Shown piece after piece: positions 7,096 to 56,395 of a stretch of DNA of 64,000 bases. This stretch comes from Bacteroidales bacterium (lineage in GTDB: Bacteria; Bacteroidota; Bacteroidia; Bacteroidales; WCHB1-69). The first letter of the stretch is position 1; each line of letters begins with the position of its first letter. The stretch lies in contig JAFYNM010000033.1 of assembly GCA_017549765.1 (NCBI GenBank), forward strand, positions 1 to 64,000, written 5' to 3'. The notes beneath the pieces were generated by a model. It searched no databases, had not been told where the DNA came from, and saw only the letters and a list, made by a program, of their open reading frames with translations. Both the position numbers and the translations under genes were made by a program.

Positions 7096-7277
7096 AAGTA
7101 CAGTATTTAGTTAATAAAATCTCTATTGCTCATATTGCAAAACAACCTGCAATAGTAGCAATTTTACCAACACGATACTGTTAAAAAAATCAACAGGATA
7201 TGAACAGAAAACGACGGCAACCAAACGTCCCCTTGTCCATAGCTAACAGCAAATAGCCAACAGCCAATGGCTAACGG
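7096..7277. other. Intergenic region between the adhesin start and capD-like stop, with inverted repeat
   Basis: About 180 AT-rich bases. Reading toward the adhesin, a weak -7-like box TTGTTTTGC (7145-7137) differs by one base from TAnnTTTGC. It is flanked symmetrically by a 7-bp inverted repeat, CTATTGC at 7123-7129 and GCAATAG at 7149-7155, which could be an operator or a leader hairpin. The left end of heptamer array A begins at 7241. No gene was found here. Confidence 0.35.
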
Positions 7278-7282
7278 CTAAC
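7241..7282. repeat. Heptamer array A, overlapping the capD-like stop codon
   Basis: Six contiguous 7-bp units on the plus strand: AGCTAAC, AGCAAAT, AGCCAAC, AGCCAAT, GGCTAAC, GGCTAAC. On the minus strand this reads as TTRGCYR units. The TAG stop of the adjacent minus-strand sugar dehydratase gene (7280-7278) lies inside the final unit. Confidence 0.85.
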
Positions 7283-18099: not shown

Positions 18100-19635
18100 A
18101 TGAAACGAGTTATCATCAGCGTAAGCGACAAGACCGGCCTCATCCCCTTTGCGGTGGGACTGGCAGAATCCGGATTTGAAATCATCTCCACAGGAGGAAC
18201 CAAGAAAGCCTTGGACGCCGCGGGCGTGCCCACCATCGGCATCAGCGACGTGACCGGCTTCCCCGAGATCATGGACGGCCGCGTGAAGACCCTACACCCG
18301 AAAGTGCACGGCGGCCTGCTTGCCATCCGCGACAACAAAGACCATCAGAAGGCCATGAAGGACAACGACATAGACCCCATCGACATGATTGTCGTCAACC
18401 TCTACCCCTTCAAGGAGACCATCTCCAAACCGGATGTCACCTGGGCTGACGCCATTGAGAACATCGACATCGGCGGTCCCACCATGCTGCGCAGCGCCGC
18501 CAAGAACCACCAGTTCGTCACGGTCGTCTGCGACCCGAACGACTACGGCAAAGTGTTGGCAGAGCTCCGTGACAATGGCGAGACCTCCCTGGAGACCCGC
18601 CGCAAGCTGGCCGCCAAGGTGTTCCGTCACACCGCCGCCTACGATGCCTGCATCTCCGGCTATCTGACCGAGCAGGTCGGCGAGAACGAGCCCGAGAGCA
18701 TCACGCTGTCGTTCAACCGGAAGCAATCGCTCCGTTATGGCGAGAACCCACATCAGGAGGCCACCTTCTATGCCGGTCGCAAGCAGGGCTACTCCATCGC
18801 CTGGGCCGAGCAACTGCACGGAAAAGAGCTATCATACAACAACATACAAGACGCAGACGCTACCTTGCAGATCCTGCGCGAGTTTGACGAGCCCGCCGTG
18901 GTCGCCGTCAAGCACAAGAACCCCTGCGGCGTGGGCTTGGGTGCCAACGCATTGGAGGCATGGCAACGCGCCTACGAGGCCGACCCCGTCTCCATCTTCG
19001 GCGGCATCGTGGCCTCCAACAGGGAGATAGACCTCGCCACGGCTGAGGCTATGAAGCCCGTCTTCCTGGAGATCATCCTCGCCCCCAGCTTCACGCCCGA
19101 AGCACTGGAGCACCTCTCCACCAAGAAGAACATCCGCCTGATGACCTTCGACACCAGCAAAGAAGGTGCCGACGACAAGATGTTCATCAGCGTACAGGGC
19201 GGCATGCTTGCACAGTCCATCGACCGCTACTCTACGGAAAACTATGATATAAAAGTCGTTACAGAGAAAGCGCCCACTGATGAGGAGATGAAGACCTTGC
19301 TGATGGCGATGAAGATCTGCAAGCACGTACGTTCCAATGCCATCACCGTGGCTGCCGACAACAAGATCGCCGGCATCGGAGCAGGACAGATGAACCGTGT
19401 CGGGGCGGCCCACATCGCCCTGGAAGAGGCCAAAGCCAAGGGCATCACCCAGGGACTCTGTCTCGCCTCAGACGCCTTCTTCCCCTTCGACGACGTAGTC
19501 AAGATGGCCTCGGAATACGGGGTCACCGCCATCATACAACCCGGCGGCTCCGTCCGCGACGAAGACTCCATCAAAGCCTGCAACGAGCTCGGCATCGCGA
19601 TGATCTTCACGGGAGTGAGACATTTTAAACATTAG
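18100..19635 (+). CDS. purH: Bifunctional AICAR transformylase/IMP cyclohydrolase
   Basis: A 511-residue enzyme for the last two steps of de novo purine synthesis. The N-terminal IMP cyclohydrolase domain (about 1-195) begins [13 protein letters not shown] and has STGGTKKAL and [13 protein letters not shown]. The C-terminal transformylase domain has LRYGENPHQ, the KHKNPCGVG catalytic Lys-His segment and the terminal [11 protein letters not shown]...[12 protein letters not shown] 18100 was chosen over the upstream in-frame 17977, since the extension does not belong to the family and would cover the promoter. The TAG stop lies inside the first unit of heptamer array B. Confidence 0.97.
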
Positions 19636-19701
19636 CCATTAGCTGTTGGCTGTTAGCTATTAGCTATTAGCCATTGGCCATTGGCTATTAGCTGTTGGCT
19701 A
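19632..19701. repeat. Heptamer array B, carrying stop codons of both convergent neighbours
   Basis: Ten contiguous 7-bp units of consensus TTRGCYR: TTAGCCA, TTAGCTG, TTGGCTG, TTAGCTA, TTAGCTA, TTAGCCA, TTGGCCA, TTGGCTA, TTAGCTG, TTGGCTA. The purH TAG (19633-19635) is in the first unit. The ung TAG on the other strand (19701-19699) is in the last. The array exactly fills the space between the two genes. Confidence 0.92.
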
Positions 19702-20382
19702 TAACTGCCAATCAATGGGGGACTTGCCCATCGACACCAACAAGGCATTCGTCTTGGAGAAATGGCGACATCCAAAGAAACCTCTGGAAGCTGACAGGGG
19801 TGACGGATGTGCGGCAGTCAGCACATAATGCTTTGTCTCATCAATCAACTCTCGTTTTCGAATGGCATAATTTCCCCACAAAAGGAACACAATTCCTGAG
19901 CGCTGCTCTGACAAGCACTGGATCGCGCAATCGGTAAAGGTCTCCCATCCATGATTCTGATGTGAGCCAGCTTGGTGCGCCCTTACCGTGAGCGTAGCAT
20001 TCAGCAAAAGGACACCTTGATTTGCCCACTTCTGAAGATTGCCGCTCCTCGGCATCTGAAAGCTCACATCGTCTGACAATTCCTTAAAAATATTGACTAG
20101 CGATCGAGGAAATGGCACTCCGTCTTGGACAGAAAAACACAATCCGTGCGCCTGCCCCTCCTCATGATACGGATCCTGTCCGATAATGACAACCTTGACA
20201 TTGTCAAACGGACACGAGTCGAAAGCATTAAAGATGTACTTCCCCGGCGGAAAGACTGCATAATGCTTCTTCTCTTCCACTAAAAAATCCTTAAGTGCTG
20301 AGAAGTAGGGAGCTTGAAATTGATCCCACAAGATCTTTTTCCATGATTCTTCAATGCGAGGTGTTATGATTTGAGCAGACAT
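19699..20382 (-). CDS. ung: Uracil-DNA glycosylase (family 1)
   Basis: A 227-residue base-excision repair enzyme removing uracil from DNA. The water-activating motif GQDPYHEEGQAHGLCFSV, LLLNATLTVR and the minor-groove loop AAHPSPLSASRGFFGC with terminal HFSKTNALL are all present. MSAQIITP at 20382 is preferred; the longer in-frame start at 20406 would be encoded by heptamer array C sequence. It converges on purH, and its stop codon is the last unit of array B. Confidence 0.95.
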   Translation of the reverse strand: MSAQIITPRIEESWKKILWDQFQAPYFSALKDFLVEEKKHYAVFPPGKYIFNAFDSCPFDNVKVVIIGQDPYHEEGQAHGLCFSVQDGVPFPRSLVNIFKELSDDVSFQMPRSGNLQKWANQGVLLLNATLTVRAHQAGSHQNHGWETFTDCAIQCLSEQRSGIVFLLWGNYAIRKRELIDETKHYVLTAAHPSPLSASRGFFGCRHFSKTNALLVSMGKSPIDWQL

Positions 20383-20391
20383 AATGAGATA

Positions 20392-20440
20392 TAAGCTGTT
20401 AGCCATTAGCTGTTAGCCATTAGCTATTAACCATTGGCTT
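20392..20440. repeat. Heptamer array C, between ung and the four-helix-bundle gene
   Basis: Seven contiguous 7-bp units: TAAGCTG, TTAGCCA, TTAGCTG, TTAGCCA, TTAGCTA, TTAACCA, TTGGCTT. It lies just upstream of the ung ATG and ends next to the -33 element of the 20496 gene. Confidence 0.85.
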
Positions 20441-20862: not shown

Positions 20863-20925
20863 AGCTAAAAGCTAACGGCTAACGGCTAATAGCTAATGGC
20901 TAATAGCCAACGGCCAATGGCTATT
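20863..20925. repeat. Heptamer array D, containing the murG stop
   Basis: Nine contiguous 7-bp units on the plus strand: AGCTAAA, AGCTAAC, GGCTAAC, GGCTAAT, AGCTAAT, GGCTAAT, AGCCAAC, GGCCAAT, GGCTATT. In murG orientation these read TTRGCYR. The murG TAG (20923-20921) lies in the last unit. Confidence 0.9.
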
Positions 20926-22128: not shown

Positions 22129-22161
22129 AGGGATGGTAAGGAAAAATTGGTTTTATCCAAT

Positions 22162-22231
22162 TATCAATGTATCACTACAAACTTCTAACTGTTAATTGAT
22201 AACTGACAACTGATCACTGTTCACTGTTCAC
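22162..22231. repeat. Heptamer array E, containing the folD stop
   Basis: Ten contiguous 7-bp units on the plus strand: TATCAAT, GTATCAC, TACAAAC, TTCTAAC, TGTTAAT, TGATAAC, TGACAAC, TGATCAC, TGTTCAC, TGTTCAC. The folD TGA (22216-22214) is within it, and the last folD codons (V-N-S-E-Q) are themselves encoded by repeat units. Confidence 0.88.
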
Positions 22232-23098
22232 TTTTTTCTTGTACGCTTTCATCGTGTTGAGCAGGAGGCAGGCCATGGTCATGGAGCCCACGCCGCCGGG
22301 CACGGGCGTGATGGCCTCGCAACGCGGCGACACTTCGTCGAACATGACATCACCACAGACCTTGTAGCCCTTGGGCTGGCTCTCATCGGGAATACGATGG
22401 ATACCGACATCGATGACGGTGGCCTGTTCTTTCACGTACTCGGCCGTAATCATCTCCGGCTGGCCAATGGCGACGATCAGGATGTCGGCGCGACGACACA
22501 CCTGCGGCAGATTCTCGGTACGGCTGTGGCACACCGTGACGGTGGCGTTGGCGTCTTTCTGCAACAGCATCATCGCTAACGGTTTGCCAACGATATTGCT
22601 CCGGCCAATGATGACACAGTTCTTGCCAGCCGTTTCGATACCGCCCCTGCGCAAGAGCTCCATCACCCCGAATGGCGTGGCAGGAGCATAACAGTCCTTG
22701 CCCAAGAGCAGATTGCCCATGTTGATTGGATGGAAACAGTCCATATCCTTCTTTGGATCGACATGTGCCACCACCTTATCCATGGAGACCTGCTTGGGCA
22801 ACGGCATCTGGATGATGTAGCCGTCTATCTCGTCATCGGAATTCAAAAAGTCGATGGTATCCAGGATGTCGCGTTCCTTCACGTCGGCGGGGAACTTGTA
22901 CGCGGATGCGATATAGCCCACGCCTTTGCACTGCTTTTCAATGCTGTTGACATAGCTGAGCGCGGCGCCATCCTCACCGGCAATGATCACCGCCAAATGC
23001 GGAGCCCGCTTCCCTTGGTCCAACAAACTCTTCACCTCGGTGGCAATCTCCGTTTTGATGGTGGATGAAATTTCTTTTCCGTCAATAATTCTGGTCAT
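22214..23098 (-). CDS. folD: Bifunctional methylenetetrahydrofolate dehydrogenase/cyclohydrolase
   Basis: A 294-residue FolD, interconverting 5,10-methylene-THF and 10-formyl-THF in one-carbon metabolism, the pool used by PurH. Visible are the catalytic Y-x-x-x-K (YVNSIEKQCK), GYIIQMPLPKQV, the NADP motif GRSNIVGKPLAMMLL and the C-terminal PVPGGVGSMTMACLL. The final residues KKKVNSEQ run into heptamer array E, so the extreme C-terminus appears to be repeat-derived. Confidence 0.96.
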   Translation of the reverse strand: MTRIIDGKEISSTIKTEIATEVKSLLDQGKRAPHLAVIIAGEDGAALSYVNSIEKQCKGVGYIASAYKFPADVKERDILDTIDFLNSDDEIDGYIIQMPLPKQVSMDKVVAHVDPKKDMDCFHPINMGNLLLGKDCYAPATPFGVMELLRRGGIETAGKNCVIIGRSNIVGKPLAMMLLQKDANATVTVCHSRTENLPQVCRRADILIVAIGQPEMITAEYVKEQATVIDVGIHRIPDESQPKGYKVCGDVMFDEVSPRCEAITPVPGGVGSMTMACLLLNTMKAYKKKVNSEQ

Positions 23099-23131
23099 AC
23101 GTTATTCAAACTTTAACTTTATATTCGGCTT

Positions 23132-23222
23132 TTGGCCATTAGCTTTTAACTCCTAACTTCTAATTTCTAATTTCTAACTCCCAACTGACAACTGACAACT
23201 GACAACTGACAACTGTCAACTC
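23132..23222. repeat. Heptamer array F, abutting the ffh stop
   Basis: Thirteen contiguous 7-bp units on the plus strand: TTGGCCA, TTAGCTT, TTAACTC, CTAACTT, CTAATTT twice, CTAACTC, CCAACTG, ACAACTG four times, TCAACTC. The ffh TAG (23225-23223) touches its right end. In ffh orientation the order is AGTTGTC-type, then AGTTAGA-type, then GCTAAT and GGCCAA. Confidence 0.92.
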
Positions 23223-24563
23223 CTACAAAGGTCTTCTACCCGGGGCGTTCATGGCGCGCATCAGGTTCTTGGCCTTGCCGCTGTTCACCATCTTCATCAT
23301 CTTGCGCGTATCTTCGAACTGCTTGATCAGGCGGTTGACATCCTGGATGTCGCTGCCGCTACCCTTGGCGATGCGCTTGCGGCGGGATCCGTTGAGAATG
23401 TCAGGGTTGGCGCGCTCCTGCGGGGTCATGGATTGGATGATGACCTCAATACTCTTGAACGCATCGTCGTCGATATCCATATCCTTGACCATCTTGCCCA
23501 TGCCAGGGATCATCGTCATCAGGTCTTTCAGGTTGCCCATCTTCTTGATCTGCTGAATCTGGGCCATAAAATCGTTGAAGTCGAACTGGTTCTTGGCCAG
23601 TTTCTTCTGCAGTTTGGCAGCCTCTTCCTCGTCGAACTGGGCCTGAGCCTTCTCCACGAAAGAGCGGATGTCGCCCATGCCGAGGATACGCTCTGCCAGA
23701 CGGTCGGGATGGAAGACGTCCAGTGCCTCCATCTTCTCGCCAGTACCGATGAACTTGATGGGCTTCTCCACCACGGAGCGGATGGTCAGGGCAGCACCAC
23801 CGCGGGTGTCACCGTCCATCTTGGTCAGAATGACACCGTCGAAGTTCAGCTTGTCGTTGAAGGCCTTGGCCGTGTTGACAGCATCCTGGCCCGTCATAGC
23901 GTCCACCACGAAGAGGATCTCGTGCGGGTTGACGGCATCCTTGATGTTGCCGATCTCCGTCATCATCTCCTCGTCGATGGCCAGACGACCGGCGGTATCG
24001 ATCAAAACGACATCGTAGCCGTATTCCTTGGCGTACTTGACACCGTTCTTGGCAATCTCTACCGGCTTTTTGTTGTCCTCTTCAGCATAGACATACACCC
24101 CGATCTGTTCGCCCAGCACCTTGAGCTGGTCAATAGCGGCGGGACGATAGACGTCGCAGGCAACGAGCATCGGCTTTTTATGACGCTTGTTCTTGAGTAG
24201 GTTAGCCAACTTGGCGGCGTGGGTCGTCTTACCGGAGCCTTGCAGACCCGACATCAGGATGATGGCCGGGTTGCCATTGAGGTTGATGTCCACCGCATCG
24301 CGCCCCATCAGGTTGATGAGTTCGTCGTAGGTGATCTTCACCATCAACTGACTGGGAGACACTGCGTTCAGTACATTCATACCCAGCGCTTTCTGCTTCA
24401 CCTGGTCGGTAAACTCCTTGGCAATCTTATAGCTCACATCGGCATCCAGAAGGGCCTTGCGGACCTCCTTCATCGTCTCGGCCACGTTGATCTCGGTGAT
24501 GCGGCCTTGACCTTTCAATATCTTAAACGAGCGTTCTAGTCTTTCTGATAAACTTTCAAACAT
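23223..24563 (-). CDS. ffh: Signal recognition particle protein Ffh (SRP54)
   Basis: A 446-residue SRP GTPase that binds 4.5S RNA and signal sequences and pairs with FtsY, also in this window. The NG domain shows GLQGSGKTTHAAKLA, DVYRPAA, DTAGRLAIDEEM and TKMDGDTRGGAALTI. The methionine-rich M domain has MIPGMGKM and the RNA-binding SRRKRIAKGSG. C-terminal Met-rich helices end MRAMNAPGRRPL. The promoter box is 24631-24623. The stop codon abuts heptamer array F. Confidence 0.97.
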   Translation of the reverse strand: MFESLSERLERSFKILKGQGRITEINVAETMKEVRKALLDADVSYKIAKEFTDQVKQKALGMNVLNAVSPSQLMVKITYDELINLMGRDAVDINLNGNPAIILMSGLQGSGKTTHAAKLANLLKNKRHKKPMLVACDVYRPAAIDQLKVLGEQIGVYVYAEEDNKKPVEIAKNGVKYAKEYGYDVVLIDTAGRLAIDEEMMTEIGNIKDAVNPHEILFVVDAMTGQDAVNTAKAFNDKLNFDGVILTKMDGDTRGGAALTIRSVVEKPIKFIGTGEKMEALDVFHPDRLAERILGMGDIRSFVEKAQAQFDEEEAAKLQKKLAKNQFDFNDFMAQIQQIKKMGNLKDLMTMIPGMGKMVKDMDIDDDAFKSIEVIIQSMTPQERANPDILNGSRRKRIAKGSGSDIQDVNRLIKQFEDTRKMMKMVNSGKAKNLMRAMNAPGRRPL

Positions 24564-39380: not shown

Positions 39381-40223
39381 ATGAAAAAGATATTATTCCC
39401 CATCATCACAATATGTTTGACATTGCTGGCCTTCTCCTGCGACCGCGTGGAGGGACCCTATATCGTGCTGGATGACGAAGAGACCATCACGGTCGATTTC
39501 CCGGATTTGGACCCCGCCTCCGTATATCGCAAGGTCCTGATCGAGGAATACACGGGCCACCGTTGTCCCAACTGTCCGGCTGGCCACGACAAGTTAGAGG
39601 AGTTGATCACCCGTTTTGGCGACACGCTCATCCCGGTATGCATCCATGCCACCTCGCTGGCGCAACCTACCACGGAGTTCCCCGACAACCTGATGTCTGC
39701 GACAGGCACCGAGTTGGCTACCGACTGGCAGATTGACGGCATCCCTGCCGGCGTCATCAACCGTGCCAACGAGCCCATGGGCAGCATTCCTGCCCGCTGG
39801 CTCTCCAAAGTCAACGCGGTGGACCGCAGCCATGTGCCCGCCGCCATCCAACTCGTCAACCAGTATAACGATGGTCTTTTGAAGGTCAACGCGAAAGTCA
39901 CCCTGCTGGAGCCCTACAGCTCCCCGCTCCGTTTATCGCTGTTCATAGTAGAAAACAACATCGTCAGTCCTCAAATCAACGGCACCGAGACAATAGAGGA
40001 CTACGTTCACAACCATGTGCTGCGCGGCTCCATCAACGGCACCTACGGCCAGTTGCTCAACGGCACTGGCGAGTTGACAGCGGGCGAGAGCTATCTCTAC
40101 GCCAAGTCCTTCAGCTTTGTCGGCACCAACTGGAAGCCGGAGCACTGCACAGTCGTGGCCATCCTCTACGACAAGAACAACCACGATGTCACGCAAGTGG
40201 AATGTTGCCCCGTCACGAGATAA
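39381..40223 (+). CDS. Omp28-related lipoprotein
   Basis: A 280-residue lipoprotein (lipobox LLAFSC, C20). It has the Omp28 family thioredoxin-like start KVLIEEYTGHRCPNCPAGHDKL, with a CxxC pair, and the central WQIDGIPAGVINR and NHVLRGSINGTYG segments. Porphyromonas Omp28 is a surface-exposed antigen/adhesin, but the CPNC motif suggests a thiol-redox ancestor. Last gene of the tsaC-to-omp28 run. Heptamer array G starts at the base after its stop codon. Confidence 0.87.
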   Translation: MKKILFPIITICLTLLAFSCDRVEGPYIVLDDEETITVDFPDLDPASVYRKVLIEEYTGHRCPNCPAGHDKLEELITRFGDTLIPVCIHATSLAQPTTEFPDNLMSATGTELATDWQIDGIPAGVINRANEPMGSIPARWLSKVNAVDRSHVPAAIQLVNQYNDGLLKVNAKVTLLEPYSSPLRLSLFIVENNIVSPQINGTETIEDYVHNHVLRGSINGTYGQLLNGTGELTAGESYLYAKSFSFVGTNWKPEHCTVVAILYDKNNHDVTQVECCPVTR

Positions 40224-40321
40224 AGTTGTCAGTTAGGAGTTAGAAGTTAGAAGTTAGAAGGCTAACGGCCAATAGCCAACAGCCAAAGTTTATTGTCAAA
40301 GTTCAAAGTCAAGGTCAATTT
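40224..40321. repeat. Heptamer array G, starting immediately after the Omp28-like stop
   Basis: Fourteen contiguous 7-bp units: AGTTGTC, AGTTAGG, AGTTAGA three times, AGGCTAA, CGGCCAA, TAGCCAA, CAGCCAA, AGTTTAT, TGTCAAA, GTTCAAA, GTCAAGG, TCAATTT. The order of unit types, read from the gene's stop, parallels array F read from the ffh stop. Confidence 0.9.
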
Positions 40322-56339: not shown

Positions 56340-56395
56340 TTAGCCATGGCCATTGCCCAACCACCGTTCACTGATCGCTGTTCACTGATCACTTC
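56340..56395. repeat. Heptamer array I, between divergent rnfB and the TPR gene
   Basis: Eight 7-bp units on the plus strand: TTAGCCA, TGGCCAT, TGCCCAA, CCACCGT, TCACTGA, TCGCTGT, TCACTGA, TCACTTC. More degenerate than the others but still in 7-bp register. This is the only array lying between two divergent 5' ends. Confidence 0.7.

Follow-up and report, generated by a model that had tools for sequence, protein, structure and literature searches.

Heptanucleotide arrays at gene edges carry a directional order of unit classes in a clade of rumen Bacteroidales

The 64,000-nt window analyzed here (positions 1 to 64,000 of contig JAFYNM010000033.1, abbreviated C33, from the Bacteroidales bacterium assembly GCA_017549765.1, a draft genome of 2.45 Mb) carries tandem arrays of 7-nt units, among them arrays adjoining the genes ffh, folD, and a gene for an Omp28-like protein. 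When an array is read outward from the gene at which it starts, its unit classes follow a directional order, with AGTTRTC units preceding AGTTRGR-type units and these preceding RGCYAAY units. This part of the order is well-founded; a leading position of AGTGAWC units is only a tendency. Four relatives were compared, all of them metagenome-assembled genomes (MAGs) from rumen or omasum titled "Bacteroidales bacterium": RGIG9735 (G001), RGIG9758 (G005), RGIG8246 (G011), and RGIG7025 (G060). The first three are the closest relatives (Ffh 97–98% identical). Judging by the sample origin of these MAGs, the window probably also belongs to a rumen bacterium.

Arrays were surveyed in 544 kb of the genome to which the window belongs (G000), namely the window, C33:64001-184000, and C29:1-360000. 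The array finder, which chains units of defined classes, returned 46 arrays, compared to 0 in each of the three triplet shuffles that served as null. A separate period-7 scan (threshold 0.68) gave 54 runs versus 0 in one shuffle; periods of 4, 5, 6, 8, 10, 11, and 13 gave 0–15 runs, and period 14, a multiple of 7, gave 39. The pattern (AGTTAGA)x3 has 108 matches in the genome with at most 3 mismatches, versus 5 for the reversed control. With at most 2 mismatches, it is found in this genome and in 22 of 35 congeners but in none of 24 genomes from other families of the order. With a period-7 excess, many loci, and a mostly intergenic position, the arrays are dispersed heptanucleotide tandem repeats of the STRR/LSSR kind.

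Five unit classes were distinguished: D (AGTGAWC), T (AGTTRTC), M (AGTTRGR and AGTTTGR), L (AGTTAAG or AGTTAAA), and K (RGCYAAY). They were drawn up after the period-7 scan and are thus not independent of G000, so that the whole-genome junction counts of the relatives are the better test. More than one class is held by 27 of the 46 arrays. T precedes M in all arrays holding both (15:0), and T, M, and L each precede K (4:0 in each case); T versus L (5:2) and M versus L (6:4) are looser. Flip permutation of the arrays gave p values of 0.0012 at the array level and 0.0026 for adjacent transitions, and the transition matrix is therefore not symmetric with respect to orientation. Over the whole genome, T>M junctions outnumber M>T junctions 35:2 (binomial p 1e-8; here and below junctions are tallied, and one array can contribute several). 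These results bear out the original prediction, according to which the order is not that of random growth.

The relatives show the same asymmetry to different degrees. T>M versus M>T is 39:5 in RGIG8246 (p 1.4e-7), 15:4 in RGIG9758 (p 0.019), 12:2 in RGIG9735 (p 0.013), and 14:7 in RGIG7025 (p 0.19); none of the 35 other congeners exceeds three of either junction, and their totals are 6 T>M and 11 M>T. At the array level, stretches of RGIG8246 gave T>M 23:2, D>T 5:1, T>L 9:0, L>K 5:0, and M>K 3:0, and those of RGIG9758 gave T>M 5:1 and D versus T 0:2; the stretches of both genomes were partly picked on contigs with T>M or AGTTAGA matches. The order is common to the clade and is present at orthologous gaps (ffh-folD, Omp28, C29:345118), and it is thus either inherited or continually re-made.

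The two ends of the order are less uniform. The original prediction had read the units of the arrays adjoining ffh (array F), the Omp28-like gene (array G), and folD (array E), and of a minus-strand array (array I), in agreement with the sequence (Table 1), and had derived from them a fixed order AGTGA - AGTTGTC - AGTTAGA - GCTAAT - GGCCAA. Its central T>M>K succession holds, but AGTGA-first does so only loosely: D precedes M 5:1, but D versus T is 3:2, and D>T/M junctions versus their reverse number 15:9 in this genome and 39:17 over the five genomes. GCTAA before GCCAA within class K is not a rule, with 4 arrays of G000 running one way and 7 the other; in composites alone, GCTAA comes first 2:2 in G000, 4:0 in RGIG8246, 2:1 in RGIG9758, and 1:1 in RGIG9735. 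M/L>K junctions outnumber their reverse 13:2, but the background of this pattern is high (5 and 6 in the reversed-pattern controls), and a like skew occurs in congeners without T>M order (G004, 13:5; G026, 11:4). Part of the T>M>K composite may consist of two head-on arrays, because the RGCYAAY block, when read as RTTRGCY, points outward from the opposite gene.

The polarity of the arrays is defined by the genes next to them. Genes were called by a hexamer-score caller that misses some genes (e.g., window 19699-20406), so that some distances are wrong. In G000 arrays containing T or M units, the median distance to the edge of an open reading frame (ORF) is 3.5 nt for the AGTT end and 86 nt for the other end, and the AGTT end is the nearer one in 24 of 26. 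For gaps below 800 nt with called neighbors, 29 of 39 arrays start at most 6 nt from the edge, compared to 6.4 expected under uniform placement; K-only arrays enter this count in the re-oriented sense given below. Among the D/T/M/L arrays of the five genomes that have a called neighbor, an ORF edge is at most 7 nt away from the AGTT end in 28 of 39 (G000), 17 of 31 (RGIG8246), 5 of 11 (RGIG9758), 5 of 7 (RGIG9735), and 0 of 1 (RGIG7025), and from the free end in 4, 3, 2, 2, and 0, respectively. The AGTT-side edge of the 39 G000 arrays is a stop in 27 and a start in 12. As stops and starts both serve as edges, the units read outward from the gene, not along transcription. Arrays of class K only were re-oriented after the fact (outward being RTTRGCY); read in this way, their start-side edge is a stop in 6 of 6, at a distance of at most 9 nt in 5. 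The array sense follows the neighboring gene, as judged by eye as a control for replication strand. The predicted tie to gene ends is thus correct in that the arrays are located at gene edges, but too narrow, since starts and terminators also anchor arrays. Terminator-like T-runs directly precede some arrays (C33:102454, C33:180523), and others begin right after a CAAAGATACATTTTTT motif, which we take to be the edge of a Bacteroidetes promoter.

None of the 46 arrays lies inside a called ORF, and some overlap stops. Among gaps of 40–800 nt, arrays are held by 2 of 41 divergent, 31 of 169 tandem, and 4 of 20 convergent ones. In L, M, and K arrays, the stop codon of the gene is often part of the first units, so that the array boundary is also the protein end. 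AGTTRTC has no sense-strand stop, yet it is a gene-proximal class. Several arrays terminate in AAAGTT/AAAGTC hexamers.

Table 1. Arrays and anchoring genes in the window, and loci of genes with alike C-termini (coordinates of the latter include genome and contig)
Feature	Position	Strand	Remarks
Array F	23124..23221	-	starts with AGTTGAC 1 nt past the ffh stop, ends 25 nt before the folD start; AGTTGAC, AGTTGTC x4, AGTTGGG, AGTTAGA, AATTAGA x2, AGTTAGG, AGTTAAA, AGCTAAT, GGCCAAA, AGCCGAA
Array G	40224..40287	+	directly past the stop of the Omp28-like gene; AGTTGTC, AGTTAGG, AGTTAGA x3, (1-nt shift) GGCTAAC, GGCCAAT, AGCCAAC, AGCCAAA
Hexamer-like tail (AAAGTT/AAAGTC)	40285..40315	+	distal to array G, seen in the sequence; similar tails in relatives
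Array E	about 22156..22232	-	overlaps the folD stop; AGTGAAC x2, AGTGATC, AGTTGTC, AGTTATC, AATTAAC, AGTTAGA, AGTTTGT; an AATTGGA unit further along
Array I	56366..56393	-	AGTGATC, AGTGAAC, AGCGATC, AGTGAAC; RGCYAAY-type array at the same gap in RGIG9758
K-class array	7241..7282	+	RGCYAAY on the plus strand; outward from the stop of a minus-strand gene as RTTRGCY
K-class array	19631..19706	-	overlaps the stop of a gene with AICARFT/IMPCHase domain; stop TAG (19633-19635) in first outward unit
K-class array	20398..20439	-	start region of uracil-DNA-glycosylase-like ORF 19699-20406, missed by the gene caller
K-class array	20863..20918	+	adjoins the stop of a glycosyltransferase-28 gene
ffh (SRP54, Pfam)	23223..24563	-	anchors array F
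folD (FolD domains, Pfam)	22214..23098	-	anchors array E
Omp28-like gene (Omp28, Pfam)	39381..40223	+	anchors array G
Alike-C-terminus locus	G000:C33:180440-180730		
Alike-C-terminus locus	G000:C29:76300-76640		
Alike-C-terminus locus	G001:C2:30500-30858		
Alike-C-terminus locus	G005:C10:244		

Arrays are present at most of the orthologous gaps found in the relatives, where the flanks are mostly 75–92% identical. These gaps mostly keep the order while the unit classes change. The C29:22493 gap has D units in G000 and T-M in RGIG8246, the C29:315565 gap has T in G000 and L in RGIG9758, and the gap of array I has D in G000 and K in RGIG9758. Array F has orthologous arrays in RGIG8246, RGIG9735, and RGIG9758; the succession is T-M-L-K in G000 and RGIG8246, and L-K in the other two. 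A like-ordered array at the Omp28 gene end of RGIG7025 (L135, matched by eye) is the counterpart of array G. No array was found in the Omp28 gap of RGIG8246, which was the sole array-free site closely inspected and is too diverged for a target duplication to be read, nor in the gaps of RGIG9758 that correspond to C29:279833 and C29:299583. Unit usage differs by species. In 27 of 31 comparisons, an array is more similar to its best paralog than to its ortholog, although the score favors paralogs by design (the best of 45 was taken).

Outside the clade, a collection of GTDB-species genomes was scanned once for the exact T>M>M junction. This gave 56 stretches, which belong to gut and rumen Bacteroidales (and one "Bacteroidetes bacterium"), 13 Nostocales loci, two Verrucomicrobia, and one MAG labeled Oscillospiraceae (RGIG3413). 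Twenty loci from the scan were examined; in 16 of them both sides are known, and the AGTT end is nearer to a gene in 14. For Calothrix and the Akkermansiaceae MAG, the distance counts are based on arrays with called neighbors on both sides. In Calothrix parasitica, from which 20 stretches surrounding junctions of either order were taken, 30 of 34 arrays have the AGTT end as the nearer one, and in Calothrix C42, 18 of 19 do. In C. parasitica, 37 arrays were found and 35 tabulated, one of the latter being inside an ORF; the stretches cover 21 of 23 junction sites. The outward placement rule is thus wider than the class order and is common to two Calothrix genomes. The arrays of C. parasitica also lean like those of the clade in their order (T before M 10:4, M before L 10:3).

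From the observed anchoring, order, turnover, and species-specific unit usage, we infer a direction of growth, templating between arrays, and an order of ages. We tentatively favor, with somewhat less than even confidence, the interpretation that the arrays are directional heptamer satellites of a family AGTNRNN, with RTTRGCY as a related branch, and that slippage toward the gene edge together with a succession of classes gives the order. Slippage by 7 nt would add length mostly at the AGTT end, which would advance until halted by selection at the gene, the other end being left free. The unit class in use within a lineage would change with time, and new units would be templated by existing arrays via slippage and inter-array recombination. 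The distal classes would be the older ones, and the order would record the class succession. A comparison of RGIG9735 with RGIG9758 by eye shows one array in which the difference, two AGTTGTC units, falls exactly at the anchored end; another array either has or lacks a T-L-K block, located to the AGTT side of a hexamer tail. In G000, the gene-proximal half is the more uniform one in 14 arrays versus 6, of 23 (p 0.024). A bolder version would hold that the arrays are a stratigraphic record. Arrays of several phyla would grow one way only, toward the gene edge closest to them, and the rumen clade would have gone through a common genome-wide succession of classes, beginning with the hexamer tail and continuing with RGCYAAY, AGTTAAG, AGTTAGR, AGTTRTC, and AGTGATC. 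If so, an array read from its free end would replay the history of the lineage. We consider this version doubtful, and rather unlikely; its chances are lowered by the lean of C. parasitica and by the counter-examples of RGIG7025.

A number of results weigh against growth toward the gene as the source of the order. Sampled arrays of RGIG9735 show T versus M at 1:1, and 40 kb of RGIG7025 have L before M (2:0), K before M (1:0), and K before L (1:0); the RGIG8246 ortholog of array C33:122474 runs M, then T. In 13 Nostocales genomes, 52 T>M junctions stand against 66 M>T junctions (reversed-pattern controls 18 and 9); since each of these genomes was picked for a T>M>M string, one junction was removed per genome, which results in 39:66 (p 0.011, the opposite way). 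The arrays of Calothrix C42 lean oppositely (T before M 3:8), and in the Akkermansiaceae MAG no more than 3 of 5 arrays have the AGTT end as the nearer one. Growth direction alone does not give the order, because the Calothrix arrays are anchored yet have no consistent T>M succession. Measured against an order-1 Markov model, none of the three sets G000, RGIG8246, and RGIG9758 plus RGIG9735 has a significant surplus of long shared unit strings (for strings of at least 4 units in RGIG8246, p 0.09). Templating between arrays is therefore not seen directly, and recent block copying between arrays is rejected on the same count. The differences between RGIG9735 and RGIG9758 mentioned above are not polarized by an outgroup and may be losses, and others are distal or mid-array. 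The gradient in uniformity is absent in RGIG8246 (p 0.64) and in RGIG9758 plus RGIG9735 (p 0.75; overall p 0.07), so that an age gradient by uniformity is confined to G000 and is rejected as a general feature.

The wider junction count comprised 25 genomes, four of which are RGIG8246, RGIG9735, RGIG9758, and RGIG7025 themselves. A universal fixed order finds no support in the 13 Nostocales genomes or in RGIG3413, in which T>M versus M>T is 6:16 (p 0.052). The order seems to be specific to the lineage, with the same units occurring elsewhere in no consistent order; single cyanobacteria may have a weaker one. As a separate observation, RGIG3413, which is likewise a ruminant MAG, has arrays of AGTTAGG and AGTTATC units, some of which are followed by an inverted array (L102, L104, L114, L121, L138).

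The main rival of directional growth is a common origin. An ancestral T-M-L-K-hexamer-tail composite could have been spread by ectopic recombination or by a small mobile element in the ancestor of the clade; the present arrays would be its decayed and re-expanded descendants, and the order a relic. Similar tailed composites at unrelated loci (ffh, Omp28, C29:345118, and the folD gap of RGIG9735) argue for this, as does the preference for paralogs, biased as that measure is; the Omp28 and 345118 orthologs indicate that the composite is older than the species splits. The three genome sets are, however, without significant excess of shared strings, and whole-array class switches (D to T-M, T to L, D to K) mostly spare the order, which a relic would not guarantee. 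We thus regard such an origin as possible, though on the whole unlikely. The suggestion in the original prediction of one ancestral directional element, if taken as an element copied literally, is not supported, in view of the lack of a significant shared-string excess and of classes that were swapped wholesale at the same gap between species. Alternatively, the arrays could be ordinary slippage satellites that arise where they are neutral, with unit types being those tolerated beside stops and starts. Their order would then stem from constraints that change with distance from the gene, namely stop codons and spurious ribosome or promoter sites. The exclusion of arrays from called ORFs, their rarity in divergent gaps, the stop codons supplied by first units, and two AGTGA arrays conserved almost base by base (C29:350797 in RGIG9758, C33:176233 in RGIG8246) are in line with such selection. 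Yet the gene-proximal position of AGTTRTC is the opposite of what a stop-codon rationale demands, a distance constraint should also hold in Nostocales, where T>M is inconsistent, and placement is alike at starts and stops, whose constraints differ. This makes selection an improbable source of the order.

The fixed order and the outward polarity also resemble templated addition, and the original prediction had proposed a process of this type that adds units in a set order at gene ends; the enzyme would be a reverse transcriptase or primase with an RNA template. Searches for RVT_1 gave no match in G000, RGIG8246, RGIG9735, RGIG9758, or RGIG7025, the five order-bearing genomes (one family in draft assemblies; other polymerase and primase classes were not searched), and matches in 9 of the 35 remaining congeners. 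Reverse-transcriptase templating was rejected on this basis. Furthermore, the unit counts per class vary freely, and starts and stops offer no common landmark as anchors, and a templated enzyme system is very unlikely. An RNA hairpin or terminator element, in which M followed by K would form GTTAG/CTAAC stems, is just as hard to sustain. Some arrays fold well together with the downstream 45 nt (C29:139777, z -3.8; C33:180523, z -3.6; C33:166603, z -2.9). However, arrays other than K-only ones, folded with 45 nt, have a median z of -0.02, weaker than the -0.87 of 121 array-free 100-nt gene ends, and z is below -2 in 9 of 46 arrays versus 39 of 121 control gene ends (segment lengths differ between the sets). 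A hairpin or terminator function as a general property was rejected, as there is no general folding excess over shuffles.

Some further observations were made on individual arrays. An AGTGATY/AGTGAAC array (C29:350797-350824, L099) fills the 40-nt gap between two tandem genes; the gap is identical at 40 of 40 positions in RGIG9758, with 500-nt flanking anchors that are 87% and 73% identical. RGIG8246 has an almost unchanged counterpart of another AGTGA array, C33:176233. Both look constrained, unlike the other arrays. At four loci, genes with alike C-termini, presumably type IX secretion system (T9SS)-type sorting domains, have in common the succession of stop, K array, and terminator, with a T/M array next in three of the four (see Table 1 for coordinates); these loci are a natural set of paralogous array copies. 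At several RGIG8246 loci, M units are followed by CTCCTCTTTCTCC-like and TAATCGC-like repeats (L101, L113, L118, L132, L133, L140), which are perhaps arrays pointing in from the opposite gene. Variants of a CTTGAGCAGCCCCGTTAGGGGCAAGAGCTCGGTAG-like element follow several arrays (G000:C29:199310 and 299610 onward; L110; G005:C28:303).

Cyanobacterial STRR sequences, reportedly described by Mazel in 1990, and the heptanucleotide LSSR sequences of prokaryotes (Mrazek, 2007, as cited in PMC4679880) are 7-nt tandem units dispersed in intergenic DNA, for which slippage was proposed. The arrays reported here resemble them, being likewise 7-nt tandem units dispersed in intergenic DNA. We know of no directional class order in STRR/LSSR repeats, and no report of a class order was found in open-licence PMC papers.

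Among the closest known repeats is TAACTGA, which occurs as direct repeats in marine Beggiatoaceae, cyanobacteria, and five Bacteroidetes (MacGregor, 2015; PMC4679880) and has been counted in Thiomargarita (PMC4853749). TAACTGA is the other strand of AGTTATC, and the repeats are intergenic in both systems. According to the available text of that paper, TAACTGA repeats in its main genome mostly abut starts, with "forward" corresponding to AGTTATC outward, as here, and other heptamers are mixed in with them in some species (PMC4679880). The same text describes mostly short one-unit arrays before starts and no class order. In contrast, the arrays of the rumen clade have five classes, a position mostly after stops, and a polar order; they are not TAACTGA repeats, as AGTTATC is one unit among several and 27 of 39 are at stops. 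In one survey, heptamers outnumbered all other longer simple repeats in the majority of repeat-rich genomes (Mrazek, 2007, as cited in PMC4679880).

A second system consists of GGGAATC in two xanthomonads and GGGGA(C/T)T in a Nostoc (Rehm, 2015; PMC4692102). As far as the available text shows, these repeats are nearer to the 5' ORF irrespective of ORF orientation, divergent gaps are under-represented, the two xanthomonads mostly share the same gene pairs with variable repeat length, and function was left open. Both Rehm's heptamers and the arrays described here thus run outward and are 5'-anchored at ORF edges. The xanthomonad and Nostoc units are of the G-quadruplex type (G-tracts of at least 3, with four units per quadruplex), and no multi-class order is described in that text. 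The commonest units here (AGTTAAG, AGTTGTC, AGTTAGA, AGTTATC) have no G-tracts, and G-quadruplexes therefore cannot be the general cause of the placement; the outward placement of such units also makes G-quadruplexes a poor general explanation of the Xanthomonas/Nostoc rule. Why 7 nt, why gene edges, and why outward are questions left open in the available portions of the MacGregor and Rehm papers. To these, the rumen clade adds a measurable directional order that is common to close relatives, is not shown by most sampled cyanobacteria, and makes polar growth versus copied ancestry testable in strain collections. The arrays and their placement are of a known kind.
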